Shown here: positions 26,565-59,076 of the stretch, one piece after another
How positions within the stretch are numbered: position 1 is the first letter of the stretch
How the letters are laid out: every line of letters begins with the position of its first letter
The notes under the pieces: generated by a model
Told to the model about the DNA's origin: nothing
The model's database searches: none
The model's input: only the letters and a program-made list of their open reading frames with translations
Translations under genes and position numbers: made by a program
Source of the DNA: Pseudomonas sp. FP2335
GTDB lineage: Bacteria > Pseudomonadota > Gammaproteobacteria > Pseudomonadales > Pseudomonadaceae
Direction: 5' to 3'
Length of the DNA: 64,000 nt
Assembly: GCF_030687535.1 (NCBI RefSeq)
Contig: NZ_CP117437.1
Location: forward strand, 3,431,501 to 3,495,500

Positions 26565-26578
26565 TTGACCCAGATCAA
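26565..26578. promoter_or_regulatory. ANR/DNR box shared by narK1 and narX
   Basis: TTGACCCAGATCAA. Rightward, TATGCT (26602-26607) lies 33 bp from its centre, fitting a class II promoter for narXL; leftward, it predicts a narK1 start near 26530. It is the only such box in the divergent region. Confidence 0.75.
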
Positions 26579-26814: not shown

Positions 26815-28617
26815 ATGCTTGACTGGCTGCGCAGCTCCCTGCCCGCCCGGGCCGGGCTGGCGGTGATCCTGATTGCGATCCTGGCGCTTGCCAGTTCCCT
26901 CAGCGCCGGGCTGATTGCCTGGTTCAGCCAGGGCGATGCGGCGGCGGTCAACACCGCCGGCTCAGTGCGCATGGAGACCTACCACCTCAGCTGGAAACTC
27001 GCCGCCGGGGCGCGGCCGGACGAGATCGCCGAGGTCAGCCAGAGCCTGCAGCGGCGCCTCGACAGCCAATCGCTCAAGGCGGTGCTCGAAGACGGCCCCA
27101 ACAGCGCACTGCAGCAGAGTTACCAGCAGATCCAGCAACGCTGGAACGAGGAGCTGCGCCCGGCAGTGATGGGCGGCGATGCGGCGCTGTTCCAGGCGCG
27201 TGCGCCGGCGTTTGTCGAGCAACTGAACCACTTCGTCGCGCTGTTGCAGCAACAGAGCGAGCACAAGCAAGGCTGGCAACAGGCGATCCAGGGGCTGGCG
27301 CTGTTCAGCACCTTGATCATTCTGCTGCTGGGCTTGTACGAATTGCAGTACGGCGTAGTCACGCCCTTGCAGGAGCTGGTGCACGCGACCCGGCGCTTTC
27401 GCGATGGCGACTACAAGACCCGGGTCAATCACCGCTCCGAAGACGAACTCGGCCAACTGGCCCTGAGCTTCAACGCCATGGCCGAAACCATCGAAGCCTC
27501 CCACCGCACCCTGGAAAGCCAGGTGCAGCGCAAGACCCTCAACCTGCAACAAGCCAACGCCGCCCTCGAACTGCTGTACCAGAGCAGCCGCAGCCTGGCC
27601 ACGCGGCTGGCCAACGCCGAGGGCCTGGACGAACTGATCCGGCGCTTCCAGAAACGCCTGCCGGGCCTGCGCCTGTCGCTGTGCCTGCAAGGCCACTTCC
27701 TCGCCCCGGCGCAGCAGATGCTCGCCCTGCACGGCGAACAGAGCCGCAACATCTGCGCGATCGGCGATTGCGCCACCTGCGAACGCCACCACGTCGCGCC
27801 GCCGCAGGTGTTCAGCATCAGCAACCAGGGCGCCGAACTCGGCGAACTCAAGGCACACTTCCTCGACGGCCATGCGCCCCAGGATTGGGAGAAACAACTG
27901 ATCCAGGCCTTGGCCAACCTGATCGGCACCTCGTTGTCCCTCAAGCGCCAGCGCGAGCAGGACCACCGCCTGTTGCTACTGGATGAGCGCACCATCATCG
28001 CCCGCGAACTGCACGACTCCCTGGCCCAGGCGCTGTCCTACATGAAGCTGCAAGTCAGCCGCATGCAGACCCTGATCCGCCGTGGCGAACCGGTCGAGAC
28101 CCTGGCCAACGTCACCGCCGAACTGCGTGACGGGCTCAACAACGCCTATCGCCAGTTGCGCGAATTGCTCACCACGTTCCGCCTGCAAATCCACGACGCC
28201 GGGCTGGTACAAGAGCTGCAAGACACCGCCGAGGAGTTCTCCCGACGCGGCGAGTTCCAGGTGCACCTGCATGTGGACGCGCTGGCCTTCCAGCTTTCAG
28301 CCAGCGAACAGATCCATATGTTGCAGATCACCCGCGAAGCCCTGTCCAACTGCCTGCGGCACGCCCATGCGCAGAACGCCTGGCTGCAACTGCGCCAGGT
28401 CGGCGAGACCGTCAGCCTGAGCATCGAAGACGATGGCCGGGGTTTCTGCGGCGCCGTCGACACCCGCGAACACCACGGCCTGACCATCATGGACGAACGC
28501 GCCCGCAGCCTGCACGGCCACCTCGACATCCAGCCCCGCGAGCCCCAGGGCACACGGGTGCAACTGCGTTTCCAGCCGGAATTTCTCGGCCACTCTCTAC
28601 AAGGCACCGCCCCATGA
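26815..28617 (+). CDS. narX: Nitrate/nitrite sensor histidine kinase NarX
   Basis: A 600-residue sensor kinase: membrane helix 1 (residues ~12-37), periplasmic domain beginning with the ligand-binding P-box (NTAGSVRMETYHL, 46-58), membrane helix 2 (~158-180), HAMP, a central Cys cluster (Cys314, Cys319, Cys322), and a HisKA_3-type H-box ARELHDSL with phosphorylated His400, followed by the ATPase (DDGRGF). It senses nitrate and phosphorylates NarL. ATG 26815 starts the first helix; an in-frame GTG at 26773 is possible. The stop overlaps narL (ATGA). Confidence 0.93.
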   Translation: MLDWLRSSLPARAGLAVILIAILALASSLSAGLIAWFSQGDAAAVNTAGSVRMETYHLSWKLAAGARPDEIAEVSQSLQRRLDSQSLKAVLEDGPNSALQQSYQQIQQRWNEELRPAVMGGDAALFQARAPAFVEQLNHFVALLQQQSEHKQGWQQAIQGLALFSTLIILLLGLYELQYGVVTPLQELVHATRRFRDGDYKTRVNHRSEDELGQLALSFNAMAETIEASHRTLESQVQRKTLNLQQANAALELLYQSSRSLATRLANAEGLDELIRRFQKRLPGLRLSLCLQGHFLAPAQQMLALHGEQSRNICAIGDCATCERHHVAPPQVFSISNQGAELGELKAHFLDGHAPQDWEKQLIQALANLIGTSLSLKRQREQDHRLLLLDERTIIARELHDSLAQALSYMKLQVSRMQTLIRRGEPVETLANVTAELRDGLNNAYRQLRELLTTFRLQIHDAGLVQELQDTAEEFSRRGEFQVHLHVDALAFQLSASEQIHMLQITREALSNCLRHAHAQNAWLQLRQVGETVSLSIEDDGRGFCGAVDTREHHGLTIMDERARSLHGHLDIQPREPQGTRVQLRFQPEFLGHSLQGTAP

Positions 28618-29261
28618 ACACGTCCACTCGCCACCGTATCCTGCTGGTCGACGACCACCCGATGATGCGCCACGGCATGCGCCAGATCCTCGAACTGGAA
28701 GACGACCTGCGCGTCGTCGGTGAAGCCGGCAACGGCCAGGAAGCCCTCGACCAGATCGACGCACTGCAACCGGACTTGGTGCTGCTGGACAACAACATGC
28801 CGCACATGAACGGCCTGGAAACCCTGCGCCGCCTGCGCGCCATGGACTACGCGGGCAAGGTGCTGCTGTTTACCGTGTCCGACGCCGAAGACGACATCCG
28901 CGATGCCCTGCGCCTGGATGCCAATGGCTATCTGCTCAAGGACATGGAACCGGAGCTGGTGGTCGAATTCATCCGCGACGCCCTGCATGGCGCCCTGGTG
29001 ATCAGCCCCGGCTTGACCCGCGTACTGGCCCAGGCACTGCGCTCGCCGCAGCCGCACGCGGCGGTGGAATTGACTGAGCGCGAGCGGCAGGTACTGAGGA
29101 CGATTGCCAGTGGCTACAGCAACAAGGTAATCGGGCATAAGTTGGGGATTACCGAGGGGACGGTGAAGGTGCATGTGAAGAATCTGCTGCACAAGCTGGG
29201 GTTGAGGTCGCGGGTGGAGGCGGCGGTTTGGGCGATGGAGCATTTGCGGCAGGTGGGGTGA
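28614..29261 (+). CDS. narL: Nitrate response regulator NarL
   Basis: A 215-residue response regulator: receiver domain with the acidic pair in VDDHPMM, phospho-Asp in LVLLDNNMP and Lys in LLKD, then a LuxR/GerE HTH (LTERERQVLRTIASGYSNKVIGHKLG, residues ~148-205). Works with NarX; a palindromic NarL-type site lies in the narK1-narX region. Confidence 0.94.
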   Translation: MNTSTRHRILLVDDHPMMRHGMRQILELEDDLRVVGEAGNGQEALDQIDALQPDLVLLDNNMPHMNGLETLRRLRAMDYAGKVLLFTVSDAEDDIRDALRLDANGYLLKDMEPELVVEFIRDALHGALVISPGLTRVLAQALRSPQPHAAVELTERERQVLRTIASGYSNKVIGHKLGITEGTVKVHVKNLLHKLGLRSRVEAAVWAMEHLRQVG

Positions 29262-29274
29262 ACCCAGGCACTGC

Positions 29275-30641
29275 CAATCCCCTGTGGGAGCTGTCGAGCT
29301 TTAGCGAGGCTGCGAAGGCGGTGGCACTGCTGGTGGAGATGTTGGCTGAACCACCGCTTTCGCGGGCAAGCCCGCTCCCACATTTGAGCTGTATTGCTGG
29401 GATGTCAGCGCTCGGCTGGAGATCCCTCTCACACCGCCAATCCCCTGTGGGAGCTGTCGAGCCCTAGCGAGGCTGCGAAGGCGGCGGCACTGCTGGTGGA
29501 GATGTTGGCTGAGCCACCGCTTTCGCGGGCAAGCCCGCTCCCACATTTGAGCTGTGTTGCTGGGATGTCAGCGCTCGGCTGGAGATCCCTCTCACACCGC
29601 CAATCCCCTGTGGGAGCTGTCGAGCCCTAGCGAGGCTGCGAAGGCGGTGGCACTGCTGGTGGAGATGTTGGCTGAACCACCGCTTTCGCGGGCAAGCCCG
29701 CTCCCACATTTGAGCTGTGTTGCTGGGATGTCAGCGCTCGGCTGGAGATCCCTCTCACACCGCCAATCCCCTGTGGGAGCTGTCGAGCCCTAGCGAGGCT
29801 GCGAAGGCGGTGGCACTGCTGGTGGAGATGTTGGCTGAACCACCGCTTTCGCGGGCAAGCCCGCTCCCACATTTGAGCTGTGTTGCTGGGATGTCAGCGC
29901 TCGGCTGGAGATCCCTCTCACACCGCCAATCCCCTGTGGGAGCTGTCGAGCCCTAGCGAGGCTGCGAAGGCGGCGGCACTGCTGGTGGAGATGTTGGCTG
30001 AACCACCGCTTTCGCGGGCAAGCCCGCTCCCACATTTGAGCTGTATTGCTGGGATGTCAGCGCTCGGCTGGAGATCCCTCTCACACCGCCAATCCCCTGT
30101 GGGAGCTGTCGAGCTTTAGCGAGGCTGCGAAGGCGGCGGCACTGCTGGTGGAGATGTTGGCTGAACCACCGCTTTCGCGGGCAAGCCCGCTCCCACATTT
30201 GAGCTGTGTTGCTGGGATGTCAGCGCTCGGCTGGAGATCCCTCTCACACCGCCAATCCCCTGTGGGAGCTGTCGAGCCCTAGCAGGCTGCGAAGGCGGCG
30301 GCACTGTTGGTAGAGGTGTTGGCTGAGCCACCGCTTTCGCGGGCAAGCCCGCTCCCACATTTGAGCTGTGTTGCTGGGATGTCAGCGTTCGGCTGGAGAT
30401 CCCTCTCACACCGCCAATCCCCTGTGGGAGCTGTCGAGCTTTAGCGAGGCTGCGAAGGCGGCGGCACTGCTGGTGGAGATGTTGGCTGAACCACCGCTTT
30501 CGCGGGCAAGCCCGCTCCCACATTTGAGCTGTGTTGCTGGGATGTCAGCGCTCGGCTGGAGATCCCTCTCACACCGCCAATCCCCTGTGGGAGCTGTCGA
30601 GCTTTAGCGAGGCTGCGAAGGCGGCGGCACTGTTGGTAGAG
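29275..30641. repeat. Tandem array 1: 163-bp REP-doublet unit, eight copies plus a partial ninth
   Basis: Units begin (CAATCCCCTGTGGGAG) at 29275, 29438, 29601, 29764, 29927, 30090, 30253, 30415 and 30578. The period is exactly 163 bp except for one 1-bp deletion in the seventh unit (CCCTAGCAGG); the last copy is cut after 64 bp. Each unit has an inverted REP pair, TGTGGGAGC at unit positions 9-17 and GCTCCCACA near 100-108 (GCGGGCAAGCCCGCTCCCACA), then a ~55-bp spacer ending CTCGGCTGGAGATCCCTCTCACACCGC. Short open frames inside are repeat artefacts. Fills the whole narL-to-regulator gap apart from ~110 bp. Confidence 0.95.
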
Positions 30642-30750
30642 GGTGACCGCAGCAACGGATATGGACTCAAGCCCCAGAGGTACTCCTTCAGAGGCATAGC
30701 CGCATTCCCCCAAGGCGCCCTACCCTGATCACCCGCGGAGGCCCCAACCC

Positions 30751-31431
30751 ATGCTCACCCACCCCCAAATCGTACTGACCCTGCGCCGACACCACCTGTT
30801 CAGCCGGCTACCGGAAAAAACCTTCCAGGACGTCTGCACCCTGGCCAACCTCAAGCGCCTGCCCGGCCACACGCCGCTCGTGCATCAGGGCGACCCCGCC
30901 GAGCGTTTCTTCCTGCTGGTCAGCGGCCAGATCAAACTGCACCGCGTCACGGGCGAAGGCCAGGAGCACCTGGTGGAAGTCATCCAACCCGGCCAGACCT
31001 TTGCCGAGGCGCTGCTGTTCACCCAAGCCAAGGCCTACCCGGTCAGCGCCACCGCGCTTAAAGACAGCGTGTTGGTCAGCATCGAAGGCCAGCACTACCG
31101 CCGTGCCCTGGAGGACCAGCCGCAGATCTGCCTGGCGATCCTCGGCAGCATGAGCATCCACCTGCACCAGCGCTTGCAAGACATCGACACCCTGACCCTG
31201 GCCAACGCCAGTCGCCGAGTGATCAATTTCCTGTTCCAGGAGCGCAATGCCGTCAGCGGTGAGGTGGTGCTGCAAGTGCCCAAGCGCCTGGTGGCATCGA
31301 AGCTGGGGATCCAGCCGGAGACCTTTTCAAGGATCCTGCACCGGCTGGTCGAAAGTGGCTTGATCGAGGTGCAGCGGCGCACCATCCGGATCCTGTGCGA
31401 AGAACAGCTGATGGGCTACCAGGCAGGCTGA
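30751..31431 (+). CDS. Second DNR-type Crp/Fnr regulator beside nos
   Basis: A 226-residue Crp/Fnr-family regulator: N-terminal effector domain (HHLFSRLPEKTF...GDPAERFFLLVSGQIKLHR), dimer helix, and HTH with QPETFSRILHR, whose E-S-R recognition pattern is that of FNR/ANR/DNR and predicts TTGAT sites. The N-terminal FNR cysteine cluster is absent, so it is of the heme/NO-responsive DNR kind rather than an O2-sensing ANR. It is clearly diverged from the dnr at 47849. It lies tail to tail with nosL and directly after repeat array 1. GGAGG precedes the ATG. No box is visible upstream. Role in nos control is inferred. Confidence 0.85.
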   Translation: MLTHPQIVLTLRRHHLFSRLPEKTFQDVCTLANLKRLPGHTPLVHQGDPAERFFLLVSGQIKLHRVTGEGQEHLVEVIQPGQTFAEALLFTQAKAYPVSATALKDSVLVSIEGQHYRRALEDQPQICLAILGSMSIHLHQRLQDIDTLTLANASRRVINFLFQERNAVSGEVVLQVPKRLVASKLGIQPETFSRILHRLVESGLIEVQRRTIRILCEEQLMGYQAG

Positions 31432-31432
31432 C

Positions 31433-31948
31433 TCAGTGCCCGCTGTGGGCCATGCCTGCCGGTTGCTGCAACAGCGCCAGGTCAATTTCGGCAAACCGCA
31501 GCACGCGCCCACCCGTATCCGCCGCGACCTTTTGCGCCTTGGCCTCATCGGCGAACGACGCCAGCACCACCCCCATCGCGCCCTTGAGCCCGGTGCCGAT
31601 CACATAAAACGCCGTGCGCGCATCGATCAGCTGCGTGTCGTCCGGTGCATCCCAGTGGCTGCGCCCCATGTCATGCACATACAGCTTGGCCGTGTCGTGG
31701 TGGTTTTCCGGCTGCAACCACCAGCCGAGCATTTCGGCGGTGGAGCAGAACTTCTTCACCCCGTCGCGCTCCACCACCTGGCCCTTGGGCCCGGGGAATT
31801 CGCTGATGACCATGCCGCACACATGACACTCATCATTGGGATGAAACGCCACCGGTGCATCGGTGAAGCTCGACTCTGGCGCCTTGTCGCACGCCGCCAG
31901 CACCAGGCCGGCCAACAGCGCCGCCATTACCCGTGTTTTTACACCCAT
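31433..31948 (-). CDS. nosL: Copper chaperone lipoprotein NosL
   Basis: A 171-residue outer-membrane-type lipoprotein that delivers Cu(I) for N2O reductase assembly. Signal and lipobox VLAAC, then the metal-binding CHVCGM motif (residues ~41-46), and the NosL core (GRSHWDAPDDTQLIDARTAFYVIG). Ends in a His-bearing tail (MAHSGH). GGAG lies 9 nt before ATG 31948. Last gene of the nos operon. Confidence 0.92.
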   Translation of the reverse strand: MGVKTRVMAALLAGLVLAACDKAPESSFTDAPVAFHPNDECHVCGMVISEFPGPKGQVVERDGVKKFCSTAEMLGWWLQPENHHDTAKLYVHDMGRSHWDAPDDTQLIDARTAFYVIGTGLKGAMGVVLASFADEAKAQKVAADTGGRVLRFAEIDLALLQQPAGMAHSGH

Positions 31949-31978
31949 AAACGTGACTCCAGCCGTCATAAGAATTCT

Positions 31979-32809
31979 TCAGGTCGCGCGCCGTTTGAAC
32001 AAGCCATAGGCCAGCGCCAGCGGTACGCCGACCCACGCCAGCAGGCATGCCCATAACACTGGCGCCGGCACATCGAGGTCGCTGCCCAGGGCCATGACCC
32101 CGACCGATGCAGTCCCCGTGTCGAAGCCCGCGAGGTTGATCAGCCGATACACATCGGTGGGGTTGAACAGCAGCAACCACGGCAAGCCCTGAGGGTTGAA
32201 TTGACCTTTGCTCAGCACCAGCAAGGCGAGCAAACCGAGGTCGAACACCAGTACAAAGAAGAACCACACGCCCAGCGCCAGGCCGGCGGCGGTGGATTTT
32301 TCTGCGCAGAGGCTGCTCAGCGCGTAGGCCAGGCCGAGAAAACCCCAGCCCAGCAATGTCGAGGTCAGCATGAAGCGGCCGAACGCCCAGAGCAGCAGGC
32401 CCAGTTCAACGTCATCCACCAACAGCGCAATGGCGAACATCGCGCAACCAAAGCCGATCACGGTGGCCAGGGCCAGGATCAGCCCATGCCCGACAAACTT
32501 GCCCAACAGGATCTGCCCGCGTCCCAGCGGGTAAGTGAGCAGCAGCAACAAGGTGCCGCTTTCGTCTTCGCCGACAATGGCGTCGTAGGCCAGCAACAAC
32601 GCGATCAGCGGCATCAGGAAAGTCGCCAGGCTGGCCAGGCTGGCGATGGTCGCCGGGATCGACGTGAAGCCCAATTGCCCGGCGGCGGCCGCGCCAAGCC
32701 AGGCGATACCGATGGCCAATACTGCGAACAACAGGCTGATCGCCAACAACCAGCGGTTGCGCAGGCCGTCGCCAAACTCTTTGCGGGCCAGGTTCCAGAC
32801 TGCGTTCAT
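31979..32809 (-). CDS. nosY: ABC-type permease NosY
   Basis: A 276-residue membrane protein with six to seven helices ([44 protein letters not shown] is the typical ABC-2 segment). It forms the NosDFY complex needed for maturation of the CuZ site of NosZ. Overlaps nosF by 4 nt. Confidence 0.93.
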
Positions 32810-33714
32810 AAGGCGACCTCCCCGCTGTTGAGGTAGTGGCGATAGATGTCCTCCAGGGACGGCGGCAAAAGCTCCACGTCGCTGGGGCTGTCCAGCACCA
32901 GCAACTGGCGCAGCAGGTCCATCTTGTCGTTCGCGTGCGCCGCCACTTGCAGGCCACCTGGGCCCCAGGTCTGGGTGACATGCCCGGCGGCGCTCCAGCG
33001 CTGTTGCAACATGTCCGGGCGTTGCAGGCCACGGCTGCGGATCAGCGTCGGCAACCCGGCCTCGGCACGCAATTGCGCGAGACTGCCCAGTGCGAGCAGA
33101 CGGCCTTGGGTGAGGATCGCGGCGCGGTTGATATGCGCCTCCACGCCCGGCAACACGTGGGAGCACAGGATGATGCTGGTACCGCCCTCGCGCAGGCGGT
33201 CGAGCAAACCGTACAGGTCCTGGGTGGCGACCGGATCAAGGCCGACGGTGGGTTCGTCGAGCAGCAACAGGCGGGGTTCACCCAGCAGCGCCTGGGCCAG
33301 CCCAAGGCGCTGGCGCATGCCTTTGGAGTAGGTCTTGACCCGCCGCTCGGCCGCTGCGCCCAGGCCGACGTCGTGCAGCAGGCGGTCGACCTGATGCAGC
33401 GGCGCGCCCTTGAGCCGAGCGAAATGACGCAAGGTTTCGAGGCCGCTCAACTGCGCATAGAAGGTCACGTTTTCCGGCAGATAGCCGAGCATGCGCCGTA
33501 CCCGGGGATCGCTCGGCGCGCGGCCGAAGACCCGCACCTGCCCTGCGCCGGGCTGCAATAAGCCCAGCACCAGTTTCATCGCGGTGGTCTTGCCCGCGCC
33601 GTTATGCCCGAACAGGCCCAGCACTTCGCCGGGAGCCAGGCTCAGGTTCAAATCGTGCAGCACCGCCGTGCGCCCATAACGCTGGGTGACGCCTTCGATC
33701 TCGACGACGTTCAT
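32806..33714 (-). CDS. nosF: ABC-type ATPase NosF
   Basis: A 302-residue ATPase of the NosDFY complex. Walker [10 protein letters not shown] (residues 36-44), signature [13 protein letters not shown], Walker B LLLLDEPT, and H-loop SHVL are intact. Start ATG 33714 (MNVVEIEG) matches homologues; an adjacent ATG at 33717 overlaps the nosD stop. Confidence 0.94.
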
Positions 33715-34979
33715 CATGCAGGTTCCTTGTGGTTGGGGGCTTGCATCAAGGGGTGGCTGTCCATCACCCCGGGCGACTTCATCACCGGAAATGCACGTTG
33801 CACCCAACGCAACAGCTCGATGCCAGGACTGTTCATCAACAGGCGCACCTGGGGGTACAACCACAGCAGGCGGTCGACGTTGTCGTTGGGCTCGTAGACC
33901 ACATCGCCGAGGCCATCGCCGTTGCGGTCCCAGCCCAGGTAGTCGCTCCAGAAATTGCCACGGCCGTCGGCCGACCATTCCTGCAAGCGTGTGGCCACGT
34001 ACTTGACCTGGCGGCGGTTGCCGATAAAGGCGTTGCCGGCGATGCGGTTGTCTTCCGAGCCGGCCGTGAGGTGAATGCCCACGGCGCTGCGCTCGAAGCG
34101 GTTGTGTTCGATGCGGTTGAACAGCGAGTTATAGATAAACAGCGCCTTGCCTTCGCCGCCGGTGATCATGCTGTCGCCGGTGGAACCGTCGCGCACGTCG
34201 CTGACGAGGTTGTCCTGCAAGGTGGAATAGGTGATGTAGTTCATCAGGATCCCGTAGTTCTGGTCCTGCTCGGAGCGGTTGCCGATCACCGTGAGCTTGC
34301 GGCTTTGCATCAGCGCATAGCCGGTGCGGGTGCGGCGGGTGGTGTTGCCGAGTACCTGGTTGTCGTTGGCGAACATGTAGTGGATGCCGTAACGCAGGTC
34401 TTCGAGGGTGTTGCCTTGCAGCAGGTTGCCGTTGGAGGTGTCGATGTAGATACCGTCGCGGGCCTCGCGCACCTGGTTGCCAATGACCCGAGCACCGTGC
34501 ACCGCGTACAAGTGGATGCCGTTGCCTCGGTCCTGGGAACGCAGCAGCGGGTCGCCCTGGATGCGGTTGTCGATCAGGCTCACGTCGGCGGTGCCGTCGA
34601 CCCAGATGCCAAAGCCTGGACCTTGCAGGTAGTTGCCGCGCAGTTGTGTGCGCTGGGCCTGGGGCTGGATGAAGACCGCGGCGTTCATCGCGGTGAGGTC
34701 GCGGCCCCAGTCGAGGAAAGTGCAGCCCTGCACGCTGACGTCAGGGGCGCTGATGATCAGGCCGTTGCCCTGTCCTTCGGCCTGGAAGATGGCGTCGGGG
34801 GCGCAGGTGAGTTGCATCGGCTGGTCGATGCTGAACGAGCCACGGTATTCGCCGGCGGGCAGGCGCCAGTGCTGTTCGCCGTCGGGTTGCAGCGGCAAGT
34901 CGGTGAGTGGCCGCACAGCGGCGGCCGCCTGGGCCGAAAACAATCCCAGCGCCAGCAAGACGAGAAGTGATCGAGCCAC
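33714..34979 (-). CDS. nosD: Periplasmic copper-site maturation protein NosD
   Basis: A 421-residue periplasmic beta-helix (CASH/NosD repeat) protein. After a signal sequence ([19 protein letters not shown]) come repeated parallel-beta motifs ([35 protein letters not shown]). It works with NosF and NosY to build the CuZ centre. I chose the GTG at 34977-34979, because it gives a normal signal peptide; extension upstream runs through a REP hairpin. Confidence 0.9.
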
Positions 34980-35010
34980 GGCGATACCCCATGAATGAAA
35001 GACGACCCGG

Positions 35011-35052
35011 TGTGGGAGCAAGGCTTGTGTGGGAGCAAGCCCGCTCCCACAC
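35011..35052. repeat. REP hairpin between nosZ and nosD
   Basis: A perfect 10-bp stem GTGTGGGAGC / GCTCCCACAC (35027-35036 and 35043-35052) with a 6-nt loop, preceded by another TGTGGGAGC half (35011-35019). It sits in the middle of the nos transcript and may stabilise nosRZ mRNA or lower nosDFYL expression. Confidence 0.7.
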
Positions 35053-35093
35053 AAGCCACGCGCCTGGATTGGCCCAGTGGTGGTGCTCTGCGT

Positions 35094-36995
35094 TCAGGCA
35101 GGCTCGACTTTCATGCGCCCCACCATCTCCATATGCAGTGCATGGCAGAACCAGCTGCAGTAGTACCAATGCAGCCCCGGCTTGTCGGCGATAAAGGTGA
35201 TTGACGAAGTCTGCTGCGGGCTGATCTCCATGCTCACGCCGTGGTTGACCATCACAAAACCGTGGGTCACGTCCTCGATCATGTCGATATTGGTGATGGT
35301 CACCGTGACTTCATTGCCTTGCTTAACCGTGAACTCCGAGAGCCCATAGGCCGGGGCCATGGAGGTCATGTACACGCGCACCTTGTTGCCGTCGCGGATC
35401 ACCTTGCTGTCGGTTTCCAGGTTGATGCCGTCCTTTTTGGCCAGTGCCACGGTCTCGGCGAAAAACGGGTCGTTGCGCTCCCAGATCTTTTTCGGGTTGA
35501 TCTGGTCACGCCGCGCCATCACGCAGTCGTGGGGTTCGGCAAAGGCCGGGCCGTCGTGGACCAGTTTCATCTCCTCGCCGGAGATGTCGATCAACTGGTC
35601 GTTCTCCGGGTGCAGTGGGCCGGTGGGCAGGAAGCGGTCCTTGGAGAACTTGCTCAGCACCATCAGCCACTGGCCATCGGCGTCGCGGGTTTCGGTGAGC
35701 GAGGCGTGGTTGTGACCGGGCTGGTAGTGCACGTCGAGTTTCTGCTTGATGTAGTCGACCTTCTCGCCACCGTAGGCGCGGATCGCCTTGGCGATGTCCC
35801 ACTTGACCACCTGGCTGTCGATAAACAACGTGGTGTAAGCGTTGCCGCGCCCGTCGTAGGTGGTGTGCAACGGGCCCAGGCCCAGTTCCGGCTCACCCAC
35901 CACCACGCCGCGCGGGTCGCTGATCTTGCCGTTGAACAGGTCGTCGAGCTTGTCGATGGCGATGATGGTGCAGGTGGGCGACAGCTTGCCGTTGGCGATG
36001 AAGTACTTGCCGTCCGGCGAGGTGTTGCAGCCATGGGGGTTTTTCGGCACCGGGATATAGCGGGTGAATTCGCTGTCCTTGCCGTCCAGCGATTTGCGCC
36101 CATCCACCACCGGCACCTTGGCGCCGTCGACGCTGATGAACTTGCCGGCCTTGATCGCCGCCTCGATGCGCGGGATGTTGAACACCACCACCCAGTCGCG
36201 CTCGTTGCGCATCATGCCGGCCAGGTCAGTGGCCTTTTCCGAGTTGTAGCAGGTAGCGGCTGCGTATTTGCCGGTGTAGTCCATGTCGGCGTTGTCGAGG
36301 TTGCCGTCGACGATGACCTGGAAGGCCATCTCCATTTTCTCGGCGTCGATGGCGTTGAACATGGTGAAGCTGTTGCGATCCTGCAGGTCGAAATTCTTGC
36401 CGTCATTGGGGTGCGGAATGATGAACTCGGCGTTGCAGAACACGTACTTGGTGTACGGTACCTTTTGCAGGCGCAGGCCGTGGATGGCCTGGGCATTGGG
36501 CACGGTGAGGATCTTGTCGCACTTCATGATGTCCAGGCGGATGCGTGCGACCCGGGTGTTGGCCTTGTCGTTGATAAACAGGTATTTGCCGTCGTACTTG
36601 CCGTCGGTGGTGGACAGGTGCGGGTGATGGCAATCGCCGTTCGGGTACTTGGCGCCCTCCCCCAGGATGCGCTTGCTTTCGTTGGTCAGCCCCCAGCCGG
36701 TGGCGGCGTCGATATTGAACACCGGGATACGCATCAGCTCGCGCATCGACGGGATGCCGAGCACGCGCACTTCGCCCTGGTGGCCGCCGCTCCAAAAGCC
36801 GTAATAGTCGTCGAGCTGGCCCGGTTCCACATGGATTTTCGCCTTGGCGTCCTTGGCCGCCGCCGCAAAGGATTCACGGGTAAACACCGTGCCGCCAAGG
36901 GCCGAAGCCCCGGCCAAGACCGCGCCGGTCACCGCACCGCTGCCGAGGAAACCGCGCCGGGTCAGGCCGTCGTGCTTTTCGTCTGTGTCGTTCAT
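35094..36995 (-). CDS. nosZ: Nitrous oxide reductase NosZ
   Basis: A 633-residue periplasmic copper enzyme reducing N2O to N2. Tat signal peptide [11 protein letters not shown] (residues ~12-22), seven-bladed propeller with CuZ histidines (DCHHPH and others), and the C-terminal cupredoxin CuA site [12 protein letters not shown]. Clade I by its Tat signal. AAGGAG precedes the ATG. It directly follows nosR (11 nt). Confidence 0.97.
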
Positions 36996-37006
36996 GGGTT
37001 GCTCCT

Positions 37007-39121
37007 TCAAGCGTTGGGATTTATCTGCACCACGGGAATCTGCTGCGCCGCCTTGTTGCGCTTCTTGCGCTTGTTGATCAGCGGCGGGCACTTGTGATCG
37101 TTGTGCCAGGTCATCTGGCAATCGAGGCAGTAGTGGCATTCGTTGGGGTTGATATGGCCGTCGGGATGGATCGCCTGGATCTCGCATTCCTTGGCGCACA
37201 GCTGGCACGGGTTGCCGCATTCGGCGCGACGCTTGAGCCAGTCGAACAGGCGGAACTTGCTCGGGATCGCCAGCGCCGCTCCCAGTGGGCAGACGTAGCG
37301 GCAGTAGACTTTGCGGGTGAACAGATTGATCACCAGCAGCGCCACGGCGTAGAGCACGAACCACCACTGGCGGTCGAAATGCAGGGTGATGGCGGTCTTG
37401 AACGGTTCGACTTCGGCGAAGCGCTCGGCGGTGGCCATGGACTGCAGGGAAATGCCGAACAGCACCAGCAGGATCAGGTACTTGATCGCCCACAACCGCT
37501 CATGCACGGCGAACGGCAATTCGAACTGGCGGATCTTGAGCAAACGCGCGGCTTCATTGAGCAATTCCTGCAACGCGCCGAACGGGCACAGCCAGCCGCA
37601 GAACACGCCACGTCCCCACAGCAGAATGCTCGCAGCGGTGAACACCCAGAGCATGAAGATCAGCGGGTCGGTGAGGAACAGCTCCCAGCGGAACCCTTCG
37701 AACAGCGCATGCACAAAGGTCAGCACATTCACCACCGACAACTGCCCCAACGCATACCAACCGATAAAAACCACGGTAAACACCAGGTAGCCCCGGCGCA
37801 GCCAATGCAACAGGCGTGGGCGGCGGGCCAGGCTGTCTTGCAGGAACAGAATCGCCGTGAGCAGTACCAGCGCGGCGCCGAGTACCAGCACCTGGGTTTG
37901 CTTCTGATACCAGATGCTCAGCCACAGCGGGCGGTTGGCTTCATCGATCGCCGCCTGCTCCTCGGCGCTGGGCGCCGGGCGTTCCAGGTACTGTTCGGGC
38001 ATCTGGTAAGGCAATTCGAAACTGCTGAAGGTGCCGCTGACCGGGCCGGTCTGGCGGCGTACCAAGAGTTCCAGGGTCCACGGCGAACCGGGGTCGAAGG
38101 CCGCTTGCGGGCGCACGATAAACACCGACATCTCGTCAAACGCCGGCATGCCATCGGCGTAGGCGTCATCGATGCGCTGGTGGTCGAGGTCGCGAAAGCT
38201 GATGACATTGCCGAATTGGCGCAACTGCACCCGGTCGAAAATCCCGCCGCGCACATAGCCCGAGCCCTTGAACGAAAACAGCCCGCGCCCGAGCACGGCA
38301 ATCGCCTGCTCACCGGGTTTGAGGCGCTGCATCAGGTCTGTGTAGTGCGCCTCGCCCAGCAGGTTGCGGCCGATGCTCGGCGGGTTGATGTCGGCCACGT
38401 AGAGATCGATGAAGGTGTCGTCGGCGGCACCGCTGGCTTCGGCAGCGGTGTCCTTGAAGGCCGCGTCGACCTGGCCACGGGTCAGGTGCAGGCGGCGGAT
38501 CGCACCGTTGCCGCTCAACTGCGCCCAGCTCGCCGGGGTGAACTCATCAGTGCGGATCAGCGCGGCTTTCTGCTTGGCGGCGGCCTTGCCGTCGATCAGC
38601 TTGAGGGCCACCGCGACTTCATGGGCAGCGCGCATCACCACCTCATTGACAACCATGGCCGTCACCGTCGCACCGGCAATCGCGTCCACGGTGACCGCCT
38701 TGGGGTCACTGGAGCGGCCAACCACCACCCGTTGGCGCACGTCTACACCCGCATAGTGGCCGGTGAACTCATGCAGCTTGGCCTCGGGGATGCCGATCAG
38801 CAGGATCGGTTCGTGGTGCTCCAACACATAGGCATCGCGGATGATCCCGGCGGTGTCGAGGATCACCTGGGTGTTGATCGGTTTGCCCGAGTAGGCCGGG
38901 ATATTCAGCACATCCAGGGTCTGGAACACATAGCCGACGGGCTGGCCGCCCTGGCTGATGGTACGCACCTTGAACGGGCCTTCGGCGGCCGAGACTGCGT
39001 CGTGTTGGGGGAAGGTGTGATCGATGCGTTGCTGCGCGGGCTCGGCTTGAGCGTTGGGCAAAAACATCAGCAGCACCGCCATGATCAGCCAGTGAAGCGT
39101 CAGGTGCGTGGAACGGATCAT
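37007..39121 (-). CDS. nosR: Polyferredoxin flavoprotein NosR
   Basis: A 704-residue membrane protein needed for nos expression and electron supply to NosZ. Signal sequence (1-26), periplasmic FMN-binding domain with the flavin attachment motif IAGATVTA, several membrane helices with CGWLCPFG and CRYVCPLG, and two C-terminal 4Fe-4S motifs ([12 protein letters not shown] and CHYCLDCQ). Start ATG 39121 is preceded by AAGGGA. A DNR box at 39187 predicts a ~31-nt leader. Confidence 0.96.
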
Positions 39122-39186
39122 GGGGTCCCTTACGGCGGCGTGCTGAAGATGGGACCGATGGTAGAGGCGAGGATGGCCAGTGGCCC

Positions 39187-39200
39187 TTGACCAGAATCAA
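39187..39200. promoter_or_regulatory. ANR/DNR box of the nos operon
   Basis: TTGACCAGAATCAA, centre 34 bp from a TACCAT -10-like hexamer (39158-39163, minus strand) and ~72 bp from the nosR ATG. Confidence 0.8.
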
Positions 39201-39258
39201 GCCGGTTTTTTCCGAGGTGTGGCGTATCACCGCAACCCGAAACCAATGGAAGAAACCG

Positions 39259-40868
39259 AAATCCCCTGTGTCGAGCTTTAGCGAGGCTGCGAAGGCGGTA
39301 GCACTGTTGGTGGAGGTGTTGGCTGAACCACCGCTTTCGCGGGCAAGCCCGCTCCCACAGGTGATCGGTGTTGGCGGGCTATCAGTGCTCGGCTGGAGAT
39401 CGCCCGAACACTGCCAATCCCCTGTGGGAGCTGTCGAGCCCTAGCGAGGCTGCGAAAGCGGTGGCACTGTTGGTAGAGGTGTTGGCTGAGCCACCGCTTT
39501 CGCGGGCAAGCCCGCTCCCACAGGTGATTGGTGTTGATGGGGAGTAAGTGTTCGGCTGGAGATCGCCTAGGCACTGCCAATCCCCTGTGGGAGCTGTCGA
39601 GCCCTAGCGAGGCTGCGAAAGCGGTGGCACTGTTGAGAGAGGTGTTGGCTGAACCGCCGCTTTCGCGGGCAAGCCCGCTCCCACAGGTGATTGGTGTTGG
39701 CGGGCTATCAGTGCTCGGCTGGAGATCGCCCGAACACTGCCAATCCCCTGTGGGAGCTGTCGAGCCCTAGCGAGGCTGCGAAGGCGGCGGCACTGTTGGT
39801 GGAGGTGTTGGCTGAACCACCGCTTTCGCGGGCAAGCCCGCTCCCACAGGTGATTGGTGTTGCTGGGGAGTGAGTGTTTGGCTGGAGATCGCCCAGGCAC
39901 TGCGAGTCCCCTGTGGGAGCTGTCGAGCCCTAGCGAGGCTGCGAAAGCGGTGGCACTGTTGAGAGAGGTGTTGGCTGAACCGCCGCTTTCGCGGGCAAGC
40001 CCGCTCCCACAGTTGATCGGTGTTGATGGATAGTGAGTGTTCGGCTGAAGATCGCCCAGGCACTGCTAGTCCCCTGTGGGAGCTGTCGAGCTTTAGCGAG
40101 GCTGCGAAGGCGGTGGCACTGTTGGTAGAGGTGTTGGCTGAGCCACCGCTTTCGCGGGCAAGCCCGCTCCCACAGGTGATTGGTGTTGGCGGGCTATCAG
40201 TGCTCGGCTGGAGATCGCCCGAACACTGCCAATCCCCTGTGGGAGCTGTCGAGCCCTAGCGAGGCTGCGAAAGCGGTGGCACTGTTGAGAGAGGTGTTGG
40301 CTGAACCGCCGCTTTCGCGGGCAAGCCCGCTCCCACAGGTGATTGGTGTTGATGGGGAGTGAGTGTTCGGCTGGAGATCGCCTAGGCACTGCCAATCCCC
40401 TGTGGGAGCTGTCGAGCCCTAGCGAGGCGGCGAAGGCGGCGGCACTGTTGGTAGAGGTGTTGGCTGAGCCACCGCTTTCGCGGGCAAGCCCGCTCCCACA
40501 GGTGATTGGTGTTGATGGGGAGTGAGTGTTCGGCTGGAGATCGCCTAGGCACTGCCAATCCCCTGTGGGAGCTGTCGAGCCCTAGCGAGGCTGCGAAGGC
40601 GGTGGCACTGCTGGTGGAGGTGTTGGCTGAACCACCGCTTTCGCGGGCAAGCCCGCTCCCACAGGTGATTGGTGTTGATGGGGAGTGAGTGTTCGGCTGG
40701 AGATCGCCCAGGCACTGCTAGTCCCCTGTGGGAGCTGTCGAGCTTTAGCGAGGCTGCGAAGGCGGTGGCACTGTTGATAGAGGTGTTGGCTGAACCACCG
40801 CTTTCGCGGGCAAGCCCGCTCCCACAGGTGATCGGTGTTGGCGGGCTGTCAGTGCTCGACTGGAGATC
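39259..40868. repeat. Tandem array 2: ten copies of a related 163-bp REP-doublet unit
   Basis: Units begin near 39259 (7 bp missing in its first REP), 39415, 39578, 39741, 39904, 40067, 40230, 40393, 40556 and 40719; the period is a strict 163 bp after the first. The REP-doublet part is nearly identical to array 1; the spacer differs but keeps the same length and the CTCGGCTGGAGATC-like block. Spacers come in an A form (GGCGGGCTATCAGTGCTCGG...CGAACACTG) and a B form (GATGGGGAGTGAGTGTTCGG...AGGCACTG), in the order A B A B B A B B B A. It lies between the nosR promoter and the ubiT end, in the same orientation as array 1. No gene is supported here. Confidence 0.95.
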
Positions 40869-40870
40869 CC

Positions 40871-40890
40871 CGAGGGAGCAAGCTCCCTCG
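40871..40890. terminator. REP-type hairpin after ubiT
   Basis: CGAGGGAGC-AA-GCTCCCTCG is a perfect 9-bp stem at the end of array 2, about 50 bp after the ubiT stop. This GAGGGAGC...GCTCCCTC type is a different REP family from the array units; it may end the ubi operon transcript, though a U tract is lacking. Confidence 0.45.
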
Positions 40891-40938: not shown

Positions 40939-41406
40939 TCAGGCTGCCAGGCCGCGTCCAGCACGTTCCAAATTGCGCCATAGCCACGGCGGCAATACAT
41001 CCGGGTCCAGGCTATCGATCAGGTTCTTCAACCCCAACCCCAACTCCGTATCCCCCTCAATCACCAACCGCCGGCGAAAAAACAGCGTATCCGGATCTTC
41101 CTGCCGACTGGCCAATAACAAAAACTCACGCCAGTTGCCGCTGATGGTCACCTGGGCCTGGGCCTTGTCGGCAATGCGCAACCCATCCCGCGCCAGGGTC
41201 AAGTACCAGCACAACCCCAGGTCGGGGATGCGCAGGCACATCCAGCGCCCGCGCAGCAGGTCGAAGCCACCGTCGCGCAAGGGCTCGGCCAGGCAGCGGT
41301 TGAGGCCTTGCTGCAACGCCAGGCGCTGGACCCGGAACGGCACGCGGCGCAGCAGTGGCAACAGACGGTCGGCGCCCTTGAGCAGCCATTGTTTGCGATT
41401 CAACAT
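40939..41406 (-). CDS. ubiT: Anaerobic ubiquinone biosynthesis accessory factor UbiT (SCP2 domain)
   Basis: A 155-residue SCP2 lipid-binding protein (FDLLRGRWMCLRIPDLGL, ARDGLRIADKAQAQVTISGN, DTLFFRRRLVIEGDTELGLGLKNLID). UbiT replaces the aerobic factor UbiJ in O2-independent ubiquinone synthesis. AGGAGG precedes ATG 41406. Overlaps ubiV by 7 nt, the final gene of the pdxH-moaB-moeA-ubiUVT set. Confidence 0.9.
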   Translation of the reverse strand: MLNRKQWLLKGADRLLPLLRRVPFRVQRLALQQGLNRCLAEPLRDGGFDLLRGRWMCLRIPDLGLCWYLTLARDGLRIADKAQAQVTISGNWREFLLLASRQEDPDTLFFRRRLVIEGDTELGLGLKNLIDSLDPDVLPPWLWRNLERAGRGLAA

Positions 41407-42290
41407 AGCCCCACCTCCTCGACCCGCAACATGCCGGCCTGGCCATGCCAGTAGCCGTTGCAACCGTCGACAAACAACGGCGGCGTGGCGCCCTGGCGCA
41501 CCTGGTCGTAGGCACGCACCACATCGGCCATGCCTTCGGCCCTGGGGCTCAGACGCAGCAGATCGGCACCGCAGGCGACCAGCCCCGGGTAGTCGGCGAG
41601 CAGGTTGGTGACGTCGGCGGACATCGTCTGAATGCCGTTCAAGGTAAACAACGCCTGCCCTTCCTGGCTGGTCAAGGCCATGCCGTCCGGGTAGTTGATG
41701 CAGCAGAACTGGCAGTCGTCCTTGGGCCGGTTTTCCGCACGGGCAGTGAAGCAGCGCGCCGAGTAGGCCAGGGGCAGATGACCGTAGGCGAAGATCTCGA
41801 CCTGGGGCAACGGCCGCCCCAGTTCACGTACTTGCTCCAGCACATCGGCGATCAAGCCGCGGGAGCATTCCACCGGCGGCACCCAGCGTTGCATGCCGGC
41901 ATCGAGCAATTGCACCAGGGCGTGGCCGTTGTAGAGGTTGAGCGCCGGGCCGCCGACGAAGGGCAGCTTGCGCTCCATCAGCAACTGCACCGCGCCCATG
42001 TCGTTGGCTTCCACCAGCAACTGGCCGTTGTCGCACAGGCGACGCAGGCTGGACAGTTCCGAGGCGGCTTCAATCAAGGTAAGGCTCGACAACACGATCT
42101 GCGCCGAACTGCACGCCTGCAATTCACGCCCCAGGCCCAGCCATTGATCGAGGTTCAGGGCGCGGCGTTTGGAGCACACGGTCTCGCCCAGGTAAATCAC
42201 GTCCAGGGGCAAGTCGGCCATGTCCGCATAGAAGCGCCCGAGGTGCTCCTTGTCCCAATAAAACAGCACCGGTCCGAGGCTGAGTTTCAT
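41400..42290 (-). CDS. ubiV: O2-independent ubiquinone hydroxylation protein UbiV
   Basis: A 296-residue U32-peptidase-family protein carrying a 4Fe-4S cluster; with UbiU it forms the complex hydroxylating ubiquinone precursors using prephenate instead of O2. Features: MKLSLGPVLFYWDKEHLGRFY start, VYLGETVCSKRR-like (VIYLGETVCSKRRAL), RCFTARAENRPKDDCQFCC cluster region, and a later Cys in DGCNGYWHG. Ten nt from ubiU. Confidence 0.92.
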   Translation of the reverse strand: MKLSLGPVLFYWDKEHLGRFYADMADLPLDVIYLGETVCSKRRALNLDQWLGLGRELQACSSAQIVLSSLTLIEAASELSSLRRLCDNGQLLVEANDMGAVQLLMERKLPFVGGPALNLYNGHALVQLLDAGMQRWVPPVECSRGLIADVLEQVRELGRPLPQVEIFAYGHLPLAYSARCFTARAENRPKDDCQFCCINYPDGMALTSQEGQALFTLNGIQTMSADVTNLLADYPGLVACGADLLRLSPRAEGMADVVRAYDQVRQGATPPLFVDGCNGYWHGQAGMLRVEEVGLC

Positions 42291-52545: not shown

Positions 52546-52559
52546 TTGATGGCGATCAA
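52546..52559. promoter_or_regulatory. Consensus ANR/DNR box of norCBD
   Basis: TTGATGGCGATCAA, a full consensus. Its centre is 33 bp from TATCAT (52517-52522, minus strand), a near-perfect -10, giving a start near 52511 and a 25-nt leader. Confidence 0.9.
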
Positions 52560-55552: not shown

Positions 55553-57238
<1,686 letters not shown>

Positions 57239-57592: not shown

Positions 57593-57910
57593 ATGCAAGT
57601 TTCGATGATCGGTGCGGCCATGGCGCTGCTGCTACTCATTCCCCTGCCCGTCGGCGCTGCCGTGGATGCACGCCGCCTGGAACACCTGCTGACCCAGGAC
57701 TGCGGCGCGTGCCACGGCCTGTACCTCACTGGCGGCCTCGGCCCGCCGCTGACGCCCCAGGCCTTGGCCGGTAAAAGCCGCGACAGCCTGATCGCCACCG
57801 TGGCCTACGGCCGCCCTACCCGCGCCATGCCCGGTTGGGCGCCGCTGCTCAACGCCAGTGAAATCGCCTGGCTGGTCGACCGTCTCTTGAGAGGAAGCCT
57901 CGCGCCATGA
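57593..57910 (+). CDS. nirC: Cytochrome c55x NirC
   Basis: A 105-residue periplasmic monoheme cytochrome c with signal peptide and heme motif CGACH (37-41), axial Met in RAMPGW. May serve in heme d1 completion or as an alternative NirS electron donor. Overlaps nirF by 4 nt. Confidence 0.93.
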   Translation: MQVSMIGAAMALLLLIPLPVGAAVDARRLEHLLTQDCGACHGLYLTGGLGPPLTPQALAGKSRDSLIATVAYGRPTRAMPGWAPLLNASEIAWLVDRLLRGSLAP

Positions 57911-59076
57911 TCCGTCCGTTGAGCTTGTCCCTGTGCCTGTTGCTTGGCGCCTGCACCCAGCCCGCAGTGCGCGGCAGCGGTGACCTGGGCCTGGTGATCG
58001 AACGCGCCAGCGCCAGTGTGCAAATCATTGAAACCAGCGGCATCACCGCCCTGGCGCGCATCGACGGCCTGGGCGACCTGTCCCACGCCTCGGTGGTGTT
58101 CTCCCGCGACCAGCGCTATGCCTACATCTTTGGCCGCGACGGCGGGCTGACCAAGGTTGACTTGCTGGGCCAGCGCATCGACAAACGCATCCTCCAGGGC
58201 GGCAACAGCATCGGCGGTGCGATCAGCCAGGATGGGCGCCTGATTGCCGTGTCCAACTACCAGCCCGGCGGGGTCAAGGTGTTCGACGCCGCGACCCTGG
58301 CCCTGGTCGCCGACATCCCCGCCACCCCGTTGCCCGACGGCAAGCGCTCACGGGTCGTGGGCCTGGTGGATGCGCCCGGCCAGCGCTTCGTATTCAGCCT
58401 GTTCGACACGGGCGAGATCTGGAGCGCGGATTTCAGTCATGGCACCGCGCCCACCATCCGCCGCTTCAAAGACATCGGTGAGCAACCCTACGACGCGCTG
58501 ATCACCGCCGACGGCCGCTACTACATGGCCGGGCTGTTCGGCGAGGACGGCATGGCCCAACTCGACCTGTGGCACCCGGAACAAGGCGTCAAGCGCGTGC
58601 TCGCCGACTACGGCCGTGGCCAGGCCAAATTGCCGGTGTACAAGATGCCCCACCTCGAAGGCTGGGCCGTGGCCGACAACCAGGCCTTCGTGCCTGCCGT
58701 GGGTCGCCACCAGGTGCTGGTGATGGACGCACGCAACTGGCAGCAGACCGCCGCCATCGCCGTGGCCGGCCAGCCGATCTTCGTGACGGCGCGGCCGGAC
58801 GGGCGCCAGCTGTGGGTCAACTTCGCCTACCCGGACAACGACCGCGTGCAGGTACTTGACAGCCAAACCCACCAGATCGTTGCCGACCTGCGCCCCGGTC
58901 CCGGTGTGCTGCACATGGAGTTCACCGGGCGTGGCGAGCAACTGTGGTTGTCGGTGCGTGACGGTGAGCAGGTGCAGGTCTGGGACCCGTATCGCCTAAC
59001 CTTGCTCAAGACCTTGCCGGCCTTGAGCCCCAGCGGAATTTTCTTCAGCAGCCGTGCGCAAAAAATGGGGTATTGA
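57907..59076 (+). CDS. nirF: Heme d1 biosynthesis protein NirF
   Basis: A 389-residue propeller protein related to NirS but without heme c. The N-terminus has a lipobox LLGAC (Cys16), so it is anchored in the periplasm. NirF catalyses a late heme d1 step (lactone or acid processing of a d1 precursor). Confidence 0.94.
   Translation: MIRPLSLSLCLLLGACTQPAVRGSGDLGLVIERASASVQIIETSGITALARIDGLGDLSHASVVFSRDQRYAYIFGRDGGLTKVDLLGQRIDKRILQGGNSIGGAISQDGRLIAVSNYQPGGVKVFDAATLALVADIPATPLPDGKRSRVVGLVDAPGQRFVFSLFDTGEIWSADFSHGTAPTIRRFKDIGEQPYDALITADGRYYMAGLFGEDGMAQLDLWHPEQGVKRVLADYGRGQAKLPVYKMPHLEGWAVADNQAFVPAVGRHQVLVMDARNWQQTAAIAVAGQPIFVTARPDGRQLWVNFAYPDNDRVQVLDSQTHQIVADLRPGPGVLHMEFTGRGEQLWLSVRDGEQVQVWDPYRLTLLKTLPALSPSGIFFSSRAQKMGY

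Follow-up and report, generated by a model that had tools for sequence, protein, structure and literature searches.

How do fluorescent pseudomonads come to be without nitrous oxide reductase, the enzyme that reduces nitrous oxide (N2O), a greenhouse gas, to N2 and that many of them do not have? The question is raised by a locus of Pseudomonas sp. FP2335, where two direct arrays of a 163-bp repeat bracket the regulator gene dnr2 and the entire nos operon. We analysed the 64,000 nucleotides around it (the window; contig NZ_CP117437.1, positions 3,431,501 to 3,495,500), for which a preliminary description had proposed that recombination between the arrays would remove N2O reduction and offers a mechanism for the frequent nos-negative phenotype of this group. 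We consider it very probable that these are ordinary arrays of repetitive extragenic palindromic (REP) doublets in two slots that flank nos, that nos absence in relatives is repeated and heterogeneous, and that the arrays are not its general cause, because the junctions differ among relatives and several of them, with dnr2 kept or with stubs of nos genes, are incompatible with recombination of one array with the other.

The basic layout was borne out. Both arrays lie between genes and have the same orientation, and their 163-bp period is recovered by Tandem Repeats Finder (TRF), by reading of the sequence and by self-identity at lag 163 (0.88 in array 1 and 0.91 in array 2, against 0.34 at the best lag of a 2-kb control from the nos genes). 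By the TRF borders, array 1 begins 7 bp past the narL stop codon and array 2 is spaced 63 bp from ubiT. The 8,627 bp that they enclose, described earlier as about 8.6 kb with a DNR-type regulator and nosRZDFYL, indeed hold a gene for a CRP/FNR-type regulator (the putative dnr2) and then nosL, Y, F, D, Z and R, as identified with Pfam and NCBIfam. The repeat unit contains an inverted pair of REP sequences with arms GTGGGAGC...GCTCCCAC, and a single unit is predicted to form a long hairpin (z -3.3 with DNA parameters; 0 of 200 shuffles as good). The arrays thus have the traits of REP/REPIN tandem arrays, namely an inverted REP hairpin, tandem units that include flanking sequence, and an extragenic and dispersed location; they are a further example of known REP tandem arrays, ordinary REP-doublet (REPIN-like) repeats at the level of the species. 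"Nearly identical", as the REP halves of the two arrays had been called, is too strong, since identity between the arrays is on average 91.4% in the REP half (positions 1-103 of the unit; range 82.5-97.1%) and 85.1% over the whole unit; the non-REP remainder stands at 74.1%.

On geometry, a crossover between the arrays could delete dnr2 and nos, and it would spare nar, nir and nor because narG, narH and genes with NirS-type, NorB-type and NorC-type domains (all names read from Pfam domains) lie outside the arrays. The arrays share 110 exact blocks of at least 30 bp, 9 of them of at least 50 bp and the longest of 71 bp, and they have no exact match of at least 20 bp in inverted orientation. The longest internal exact repeats are 297 bp in array 1 and 128 bp in array 2, against 71 bp between the arrays, so each array would be expected to contract more readily than to cross over with the other. 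That such events can occur between intergenic repeats is suggested by P. fluorescens SBW25, in which large tandem duplications have their ends in intergenic repeats, M2-L and the approximately placed M3-L at both ends (PMC7661048, Table 1, the part consulted). Loss of dnr2 and nos by array-array deletion is possible in the species of the window, given direct arrays 8.6 kb apart, and that much of the preliminary description stands as a matter of geometry; the deletion itself was not seen. The wider proposal, in which direct arrays are working deletion points and their crossing over is the route of nos loss in fluorescent pseudomonads, is a different matter, and the relatives make it highly unlikely.

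The fluorescens subgroup held 12 genomes without nosZ, and NosR was found in none of the 12, in a search whose set included no positive control. Of their junctions, eight were readable or partly readable. The other four were those of CBZ-4, which is cut by contig ends (its narL and ubiT contigs, like the ubiT contig of KBW05, stop shortly past these genes), and of G186, G326 and G032, whose fetched stretches do not show narL next to ubiT. The full 163-bp unit was present at none of the eight junctions, and neither was a single hybrid 163-bp array between narL and ubiT, the arrangement that had been expected of nos-less relatives; the gaps of four (JAI120, rhodesiae, G017 and G359) contain REP-sized matches, 20-52 bp long. 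Half of the eight (JAI120, PgKB35, rhodesiae and, across two contigs, G268) retain dnr2; since recombination between the arrays would delete this gene, these junctions are incompatible with it. In PgKB35 and rhodesiae ubiT and dnr2 are separated by just 22 and 9 bp, respectively, with no repeat there. In simiae, cedrina, G017 and G359 dnr2 is gone as well, and the spacing from ubiT to narL is 89 bp in simiae and 144 bp in cedrina. Nos-less relatives therefore have other end points, or no array, which is the outcome that the preliminary description had named as refuting its proposal, and the general claim is contradicted by them.

Some junctions also carry what appear to be remains of the operon. 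We compared the break points with nos gene ends after removing dnr2's own 3' letters, using 2000 shuffles. The nosL 3' stub at the PgKB35 break was matched by none of the 2000 when aligned with either the grimontii or the window nosL end, and the likeness of G268 to the 5' region of nosR was significant against grimontii (0 of 2000). No nosL stub was found in rhodesiae past dnr2's own end, in a test that included dnr2's 3' letters. In a more distant genome, G246, fragments of nosR, nosZ and nosL follow one another in that order within 489 bp (L175, 9820-10308), a decayed nos operon. The remains in PgKB35 and G246 point to loss of nos in those lineages. On a ubiU-ubiV-ubiT tree of the P. fluorescens subgroup, nos absence takes 7 changes (6 without outgroups), at least 6 of them forced by well-supported branches, counts that cannot separate loss from gain.

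The pair of arrays is not special, because the same unit occurs at no fewer than 12 loci of the chromosome (6.06 Mb), each of which has between 1 and 9 full units. Twelve is a lower bound, 40 of 650 first-look candidates having been scored, with 141 matches; it leaves out many partial matches and, at 3519 kb, a set spaced by 145 bp, and includes loci at 2352 kb and 2141 kb with only 1 and 2 full units. Among the 66 possible pairs of loci, arrays 1 and 2 rank 54th in mean unit identity and 11th in longest exact block. Orientation is shared by 39 of the 66 pairs, and the closest pair among 12 randomly placed loci would fall within 10 kb with a probability of 0.20; the direct orientation and nearness of the two arrays are within chance. 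We rejected the idea that they are recent duplicates of one another, as mean identity puts array 1 nearer an array at 3335 kb and array 2 nearer one at 3595 kb. An orientation set by replichore was likewise rejected, for no pattern emerged across the unit loci when the chromosome was halved by a dif-like site at 2.987 Mb, the only marker used, the GC skew of the fetched stretches being weak. Nor does a REP-associated tyrosine transposase (RAYT) adjoin the arrays: the genome's two Y1_Tnp matches lie far from both, at 3.943 and 1.925 Mb. Array 1 had no match in plasmid records. Six of the 12 loci fall within 274 kb (3.321-3.596 Mb), at a distance of some hundreds of kb from the dif-like site (P 0.0008 under uniform placement, post hoc). 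Two long arrays of the unit in inverted orientation, 3321344-3322872 (-) and 3335373-3336874 (+), lie about 12.5 kb apart and are a possible inversion pair.

The arrays vary within the species. PDM05, a conspecific strain with 97-98% DNA identity over three main aligned pieces, retains nos and has both arrays, at an uncertain 6.5 and 2.9 copies, and some of its units combine array-1 and array-2 tails (by eye). Because nos is kept while copy numbers differ, it appears that the arrays turn over while nos persists. At E 1e-20, the full-length unit was detected in just one of 99 genomes of the genus, the window's own, when at most 8 first-look candidates per genome were scored, which is hard to reconcile with array crossover as a widespread route; beyond that, PDM05 has the unit, and CBZ-4 and PgKB35 have copies at 78-82%. 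Among 398 genomes of the genus, ubiT was found in 94 (a 95th, weak match was dropped), including all 63 with a full-length nosZ. Of these 94, 64 have nosZ (with G079, in which it is interrupted by contig ends, counted as nos-plus) and 30 do not. Where both genes are on one contig, their starts are less than 6 kb apart in 4 of 40 genomes, the window's included. In marginalis and G160, narXL, dnr2 and nos are together, away from ubiT.

REP arrays of other periods were seen in the same slots of other species among the 97 loci compared, for instance 171 bp x4 between narL and dnr2 in G160, and 125 bp x15 in PS833 and 134 bp x3 in L097, both between ubiT and dnr2. This fits REP arrays being a common tenant of the gaps at narL and ubiT, independent of nos. 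One could argue from the same finding, from the position of the arrays directly behind two stop codons and from the strong fold of the unit that they act on RNA, with REP hairpins that end or protect the narL and ubiT transcripts and insulate dnr2-nos. However, in grimontii nos occupies this position with REPs but no tandem arrays, and we regard such a role as improbable.

We think it very probable instead that the arrays grew in the intergenic slots behind the 3' ends of narL and ubiT, with units gained, lost and exchanged by local recombination, as the two strains would indicate, and that they flank dnr2-nos because the cluster lies between those slots. Absence of nos in relatives very probably arose repeatedly, with heterogeneous junctions.

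Several observations weigh against this reading. The stretch absent from simiae, cedrina, G017 and G359 is the one that a crossover between arrays would take out, and arrays there could have decayed afterwards. G359, without dnr2 or nos, has a single REP array between ubiT and narL (L138/L168), 228 bp x4 and of a different unit from that of the window. The junctions all come from other species, the nos-less set holding no strain of the window's own, and the turnover seen in PDM05 is read from a short-read draft. The stubs are short: the nosL stub of JAI120, of about 10 bp, is weak (equalled by 6 and 38 of 2000 shuffles), and the nosR stub of G268 lacks significance against four references, namely proteolytica, G160, marginalis and the window (equalled by 44 to 342 of 2000). 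JAI120 also has an array of 165 bp x8 (L046, 384-1737) whose units partly match the window unit (75-83%), away from its nos junction. Finally, REPs can take part in nos loss, because the sequence behind dnr2 in JAI120 enters a REPIN at its left REP, and in grimontii this REPIN is located between nosR and ubiT (alignment score 83, shuffle maximum 26). The G359 array was considered as proof of array recombination and set aside, since its sister cedrina is also without dnr2 and nos, yet has no array.

The JAI120 junction leads to a further explanation, in which other dispersed repeats or REPIN edges serve as deletion points, through short-homology or single-REP events in which narL or the 3' end of nosL is joined with a repeat close to ubiT. 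Other palindromic repeats were noted by eye in the intervals of simiae, cedrina and G017. However, such repeats may have inserted after the deletion, and the ubiT-dnr2 gaps of PgKB35 and rhodesiae are repeat-free; we hold this explanation only tentatively, as possible but on balance unlikely. It is very doubtful that the whole narL-dnr2-nos-ubiT segment is deletion-prone in fluorescent pseudomonads, with intergenic REPs accumulating in the same slots as one- or two-sided break points of recurrent nos loss, and with loss through the two arrays so common in the window's species that it has standing N2O-emitting subpopulations. In our preferred reading of ordinary arrays beside nos, the pair of arrays is a candidate route, open to testing, in a single species. 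Since the junctions show repeated changes and some readable scars, the route of nos loss can be addressed lineage by lineage.

Features of the locus are collected in the table. A pattern for FNR/DNR-like boxes matched the window 9 times, at 8 places (one of them counted on both strands), against 0.05 expected; these include the box 5' of nosR and others at 26565-26578 and 52546-52559. Two genes with a cytochrome d1 domain lie on one strand, at 55565-57238 with a cytochrome c domain (NirS-like) and at 57907-59076 without one.

Table. Features at the dnr2-nos locus, in window coordinates; TAT, twin-arginine translocation.
Feature	Position	Strand	Basis
narL, nitrate response regulator, left neighbour	28614..29261	+	NCBIfam NF007935 NarL, 279.6 bits (cut-off 250)
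Array 1, 163-bp REP-doublet unit x8.4	29269..30641	+	TRF, 97% matches, score 2585; sequence reading
dnr2, CRP/FNR-family regulator, cNMP_binding + HTH_Crp_2	30751..31431	+	Pfam; name DNR putative
nosL	31433..31969	-	Pfam NosL
nosY, ABC permease	31979..32806, start approximate	-	Weak match to an ABC-permease family, under its cut-off, and place conserved across nos clusters; named by position
nosF, ABC ATPase	32806..33735, start approximate	-	ABC ATPase matches under cut-offs and conserved place; named by position
nosD	33714..35054	-	TIGR04247, 447.2 bits (cut-off 300)
nosZ, TAT-dependent N2O reductase	35094..37007	-	TIGR04244, 1051.2 bits (cut-off 625); scanned as 35094-37013
nosR	37007..39121	-	NF046105, 1195.1 bits (cut-off 1000)
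FNR/DNR-like box, 5' of nosR, outside array 2	39187..39200	+	Pattern match
Array 2, 163-bp REP-doublet unit x9.9	39269..40875	+	TRF, 90% matches, score 2591; sequence reading
ubiT, right neighbour	40939..41463	-	NF047962 UbiT, 145.4 bits (cut-off 46.9)

Among the titles and opening lines of abstracts listed in searches of the openly licensed PMC literature, none connected REP arrays with nos deletion. Loss of nos by phase variation in Azospirillum, mentioned in PMC4250227, likewise removes the nos regulon through a change in the genome, in a different organism; no array-based switch is shown here. Tandem REP structures can themselves disappear, as in an E. coli line that lost five of six tandem REPINs (PMC8049555, excerpt). 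The closest likeness is to the tandem REP/REPIN arrays of SBW25, which in the sections consulted are described as head-to-tail REP doublets with flanking sequence, extragenic and at several loci per genome, the largest with up to 12 REPs (Bertels and Rainey 2011, PMC3116915). The period differs, 163 bp here and 184 bp in SBW25, and so does the arrangement: the GI-GIII arrays of SBW25 are in forward orientation near 2 Mbp and in reverse near 4 Mbp (PMC3116915, same sections), whereas orientation here ignores the halves set by the dif-like site. The SBW25 duplications, again as given in part of PMC7661048, likewise involve direct intergenic repeats recombining, and a deletion such as that of dnr2-nos would be the reciprocal product; in SBW25, duplications of about 192 kb were observed under selection, with no deletion of nos in the part consulted, whereas in FP2335 the nos deletion is what the direct arrays would permit.

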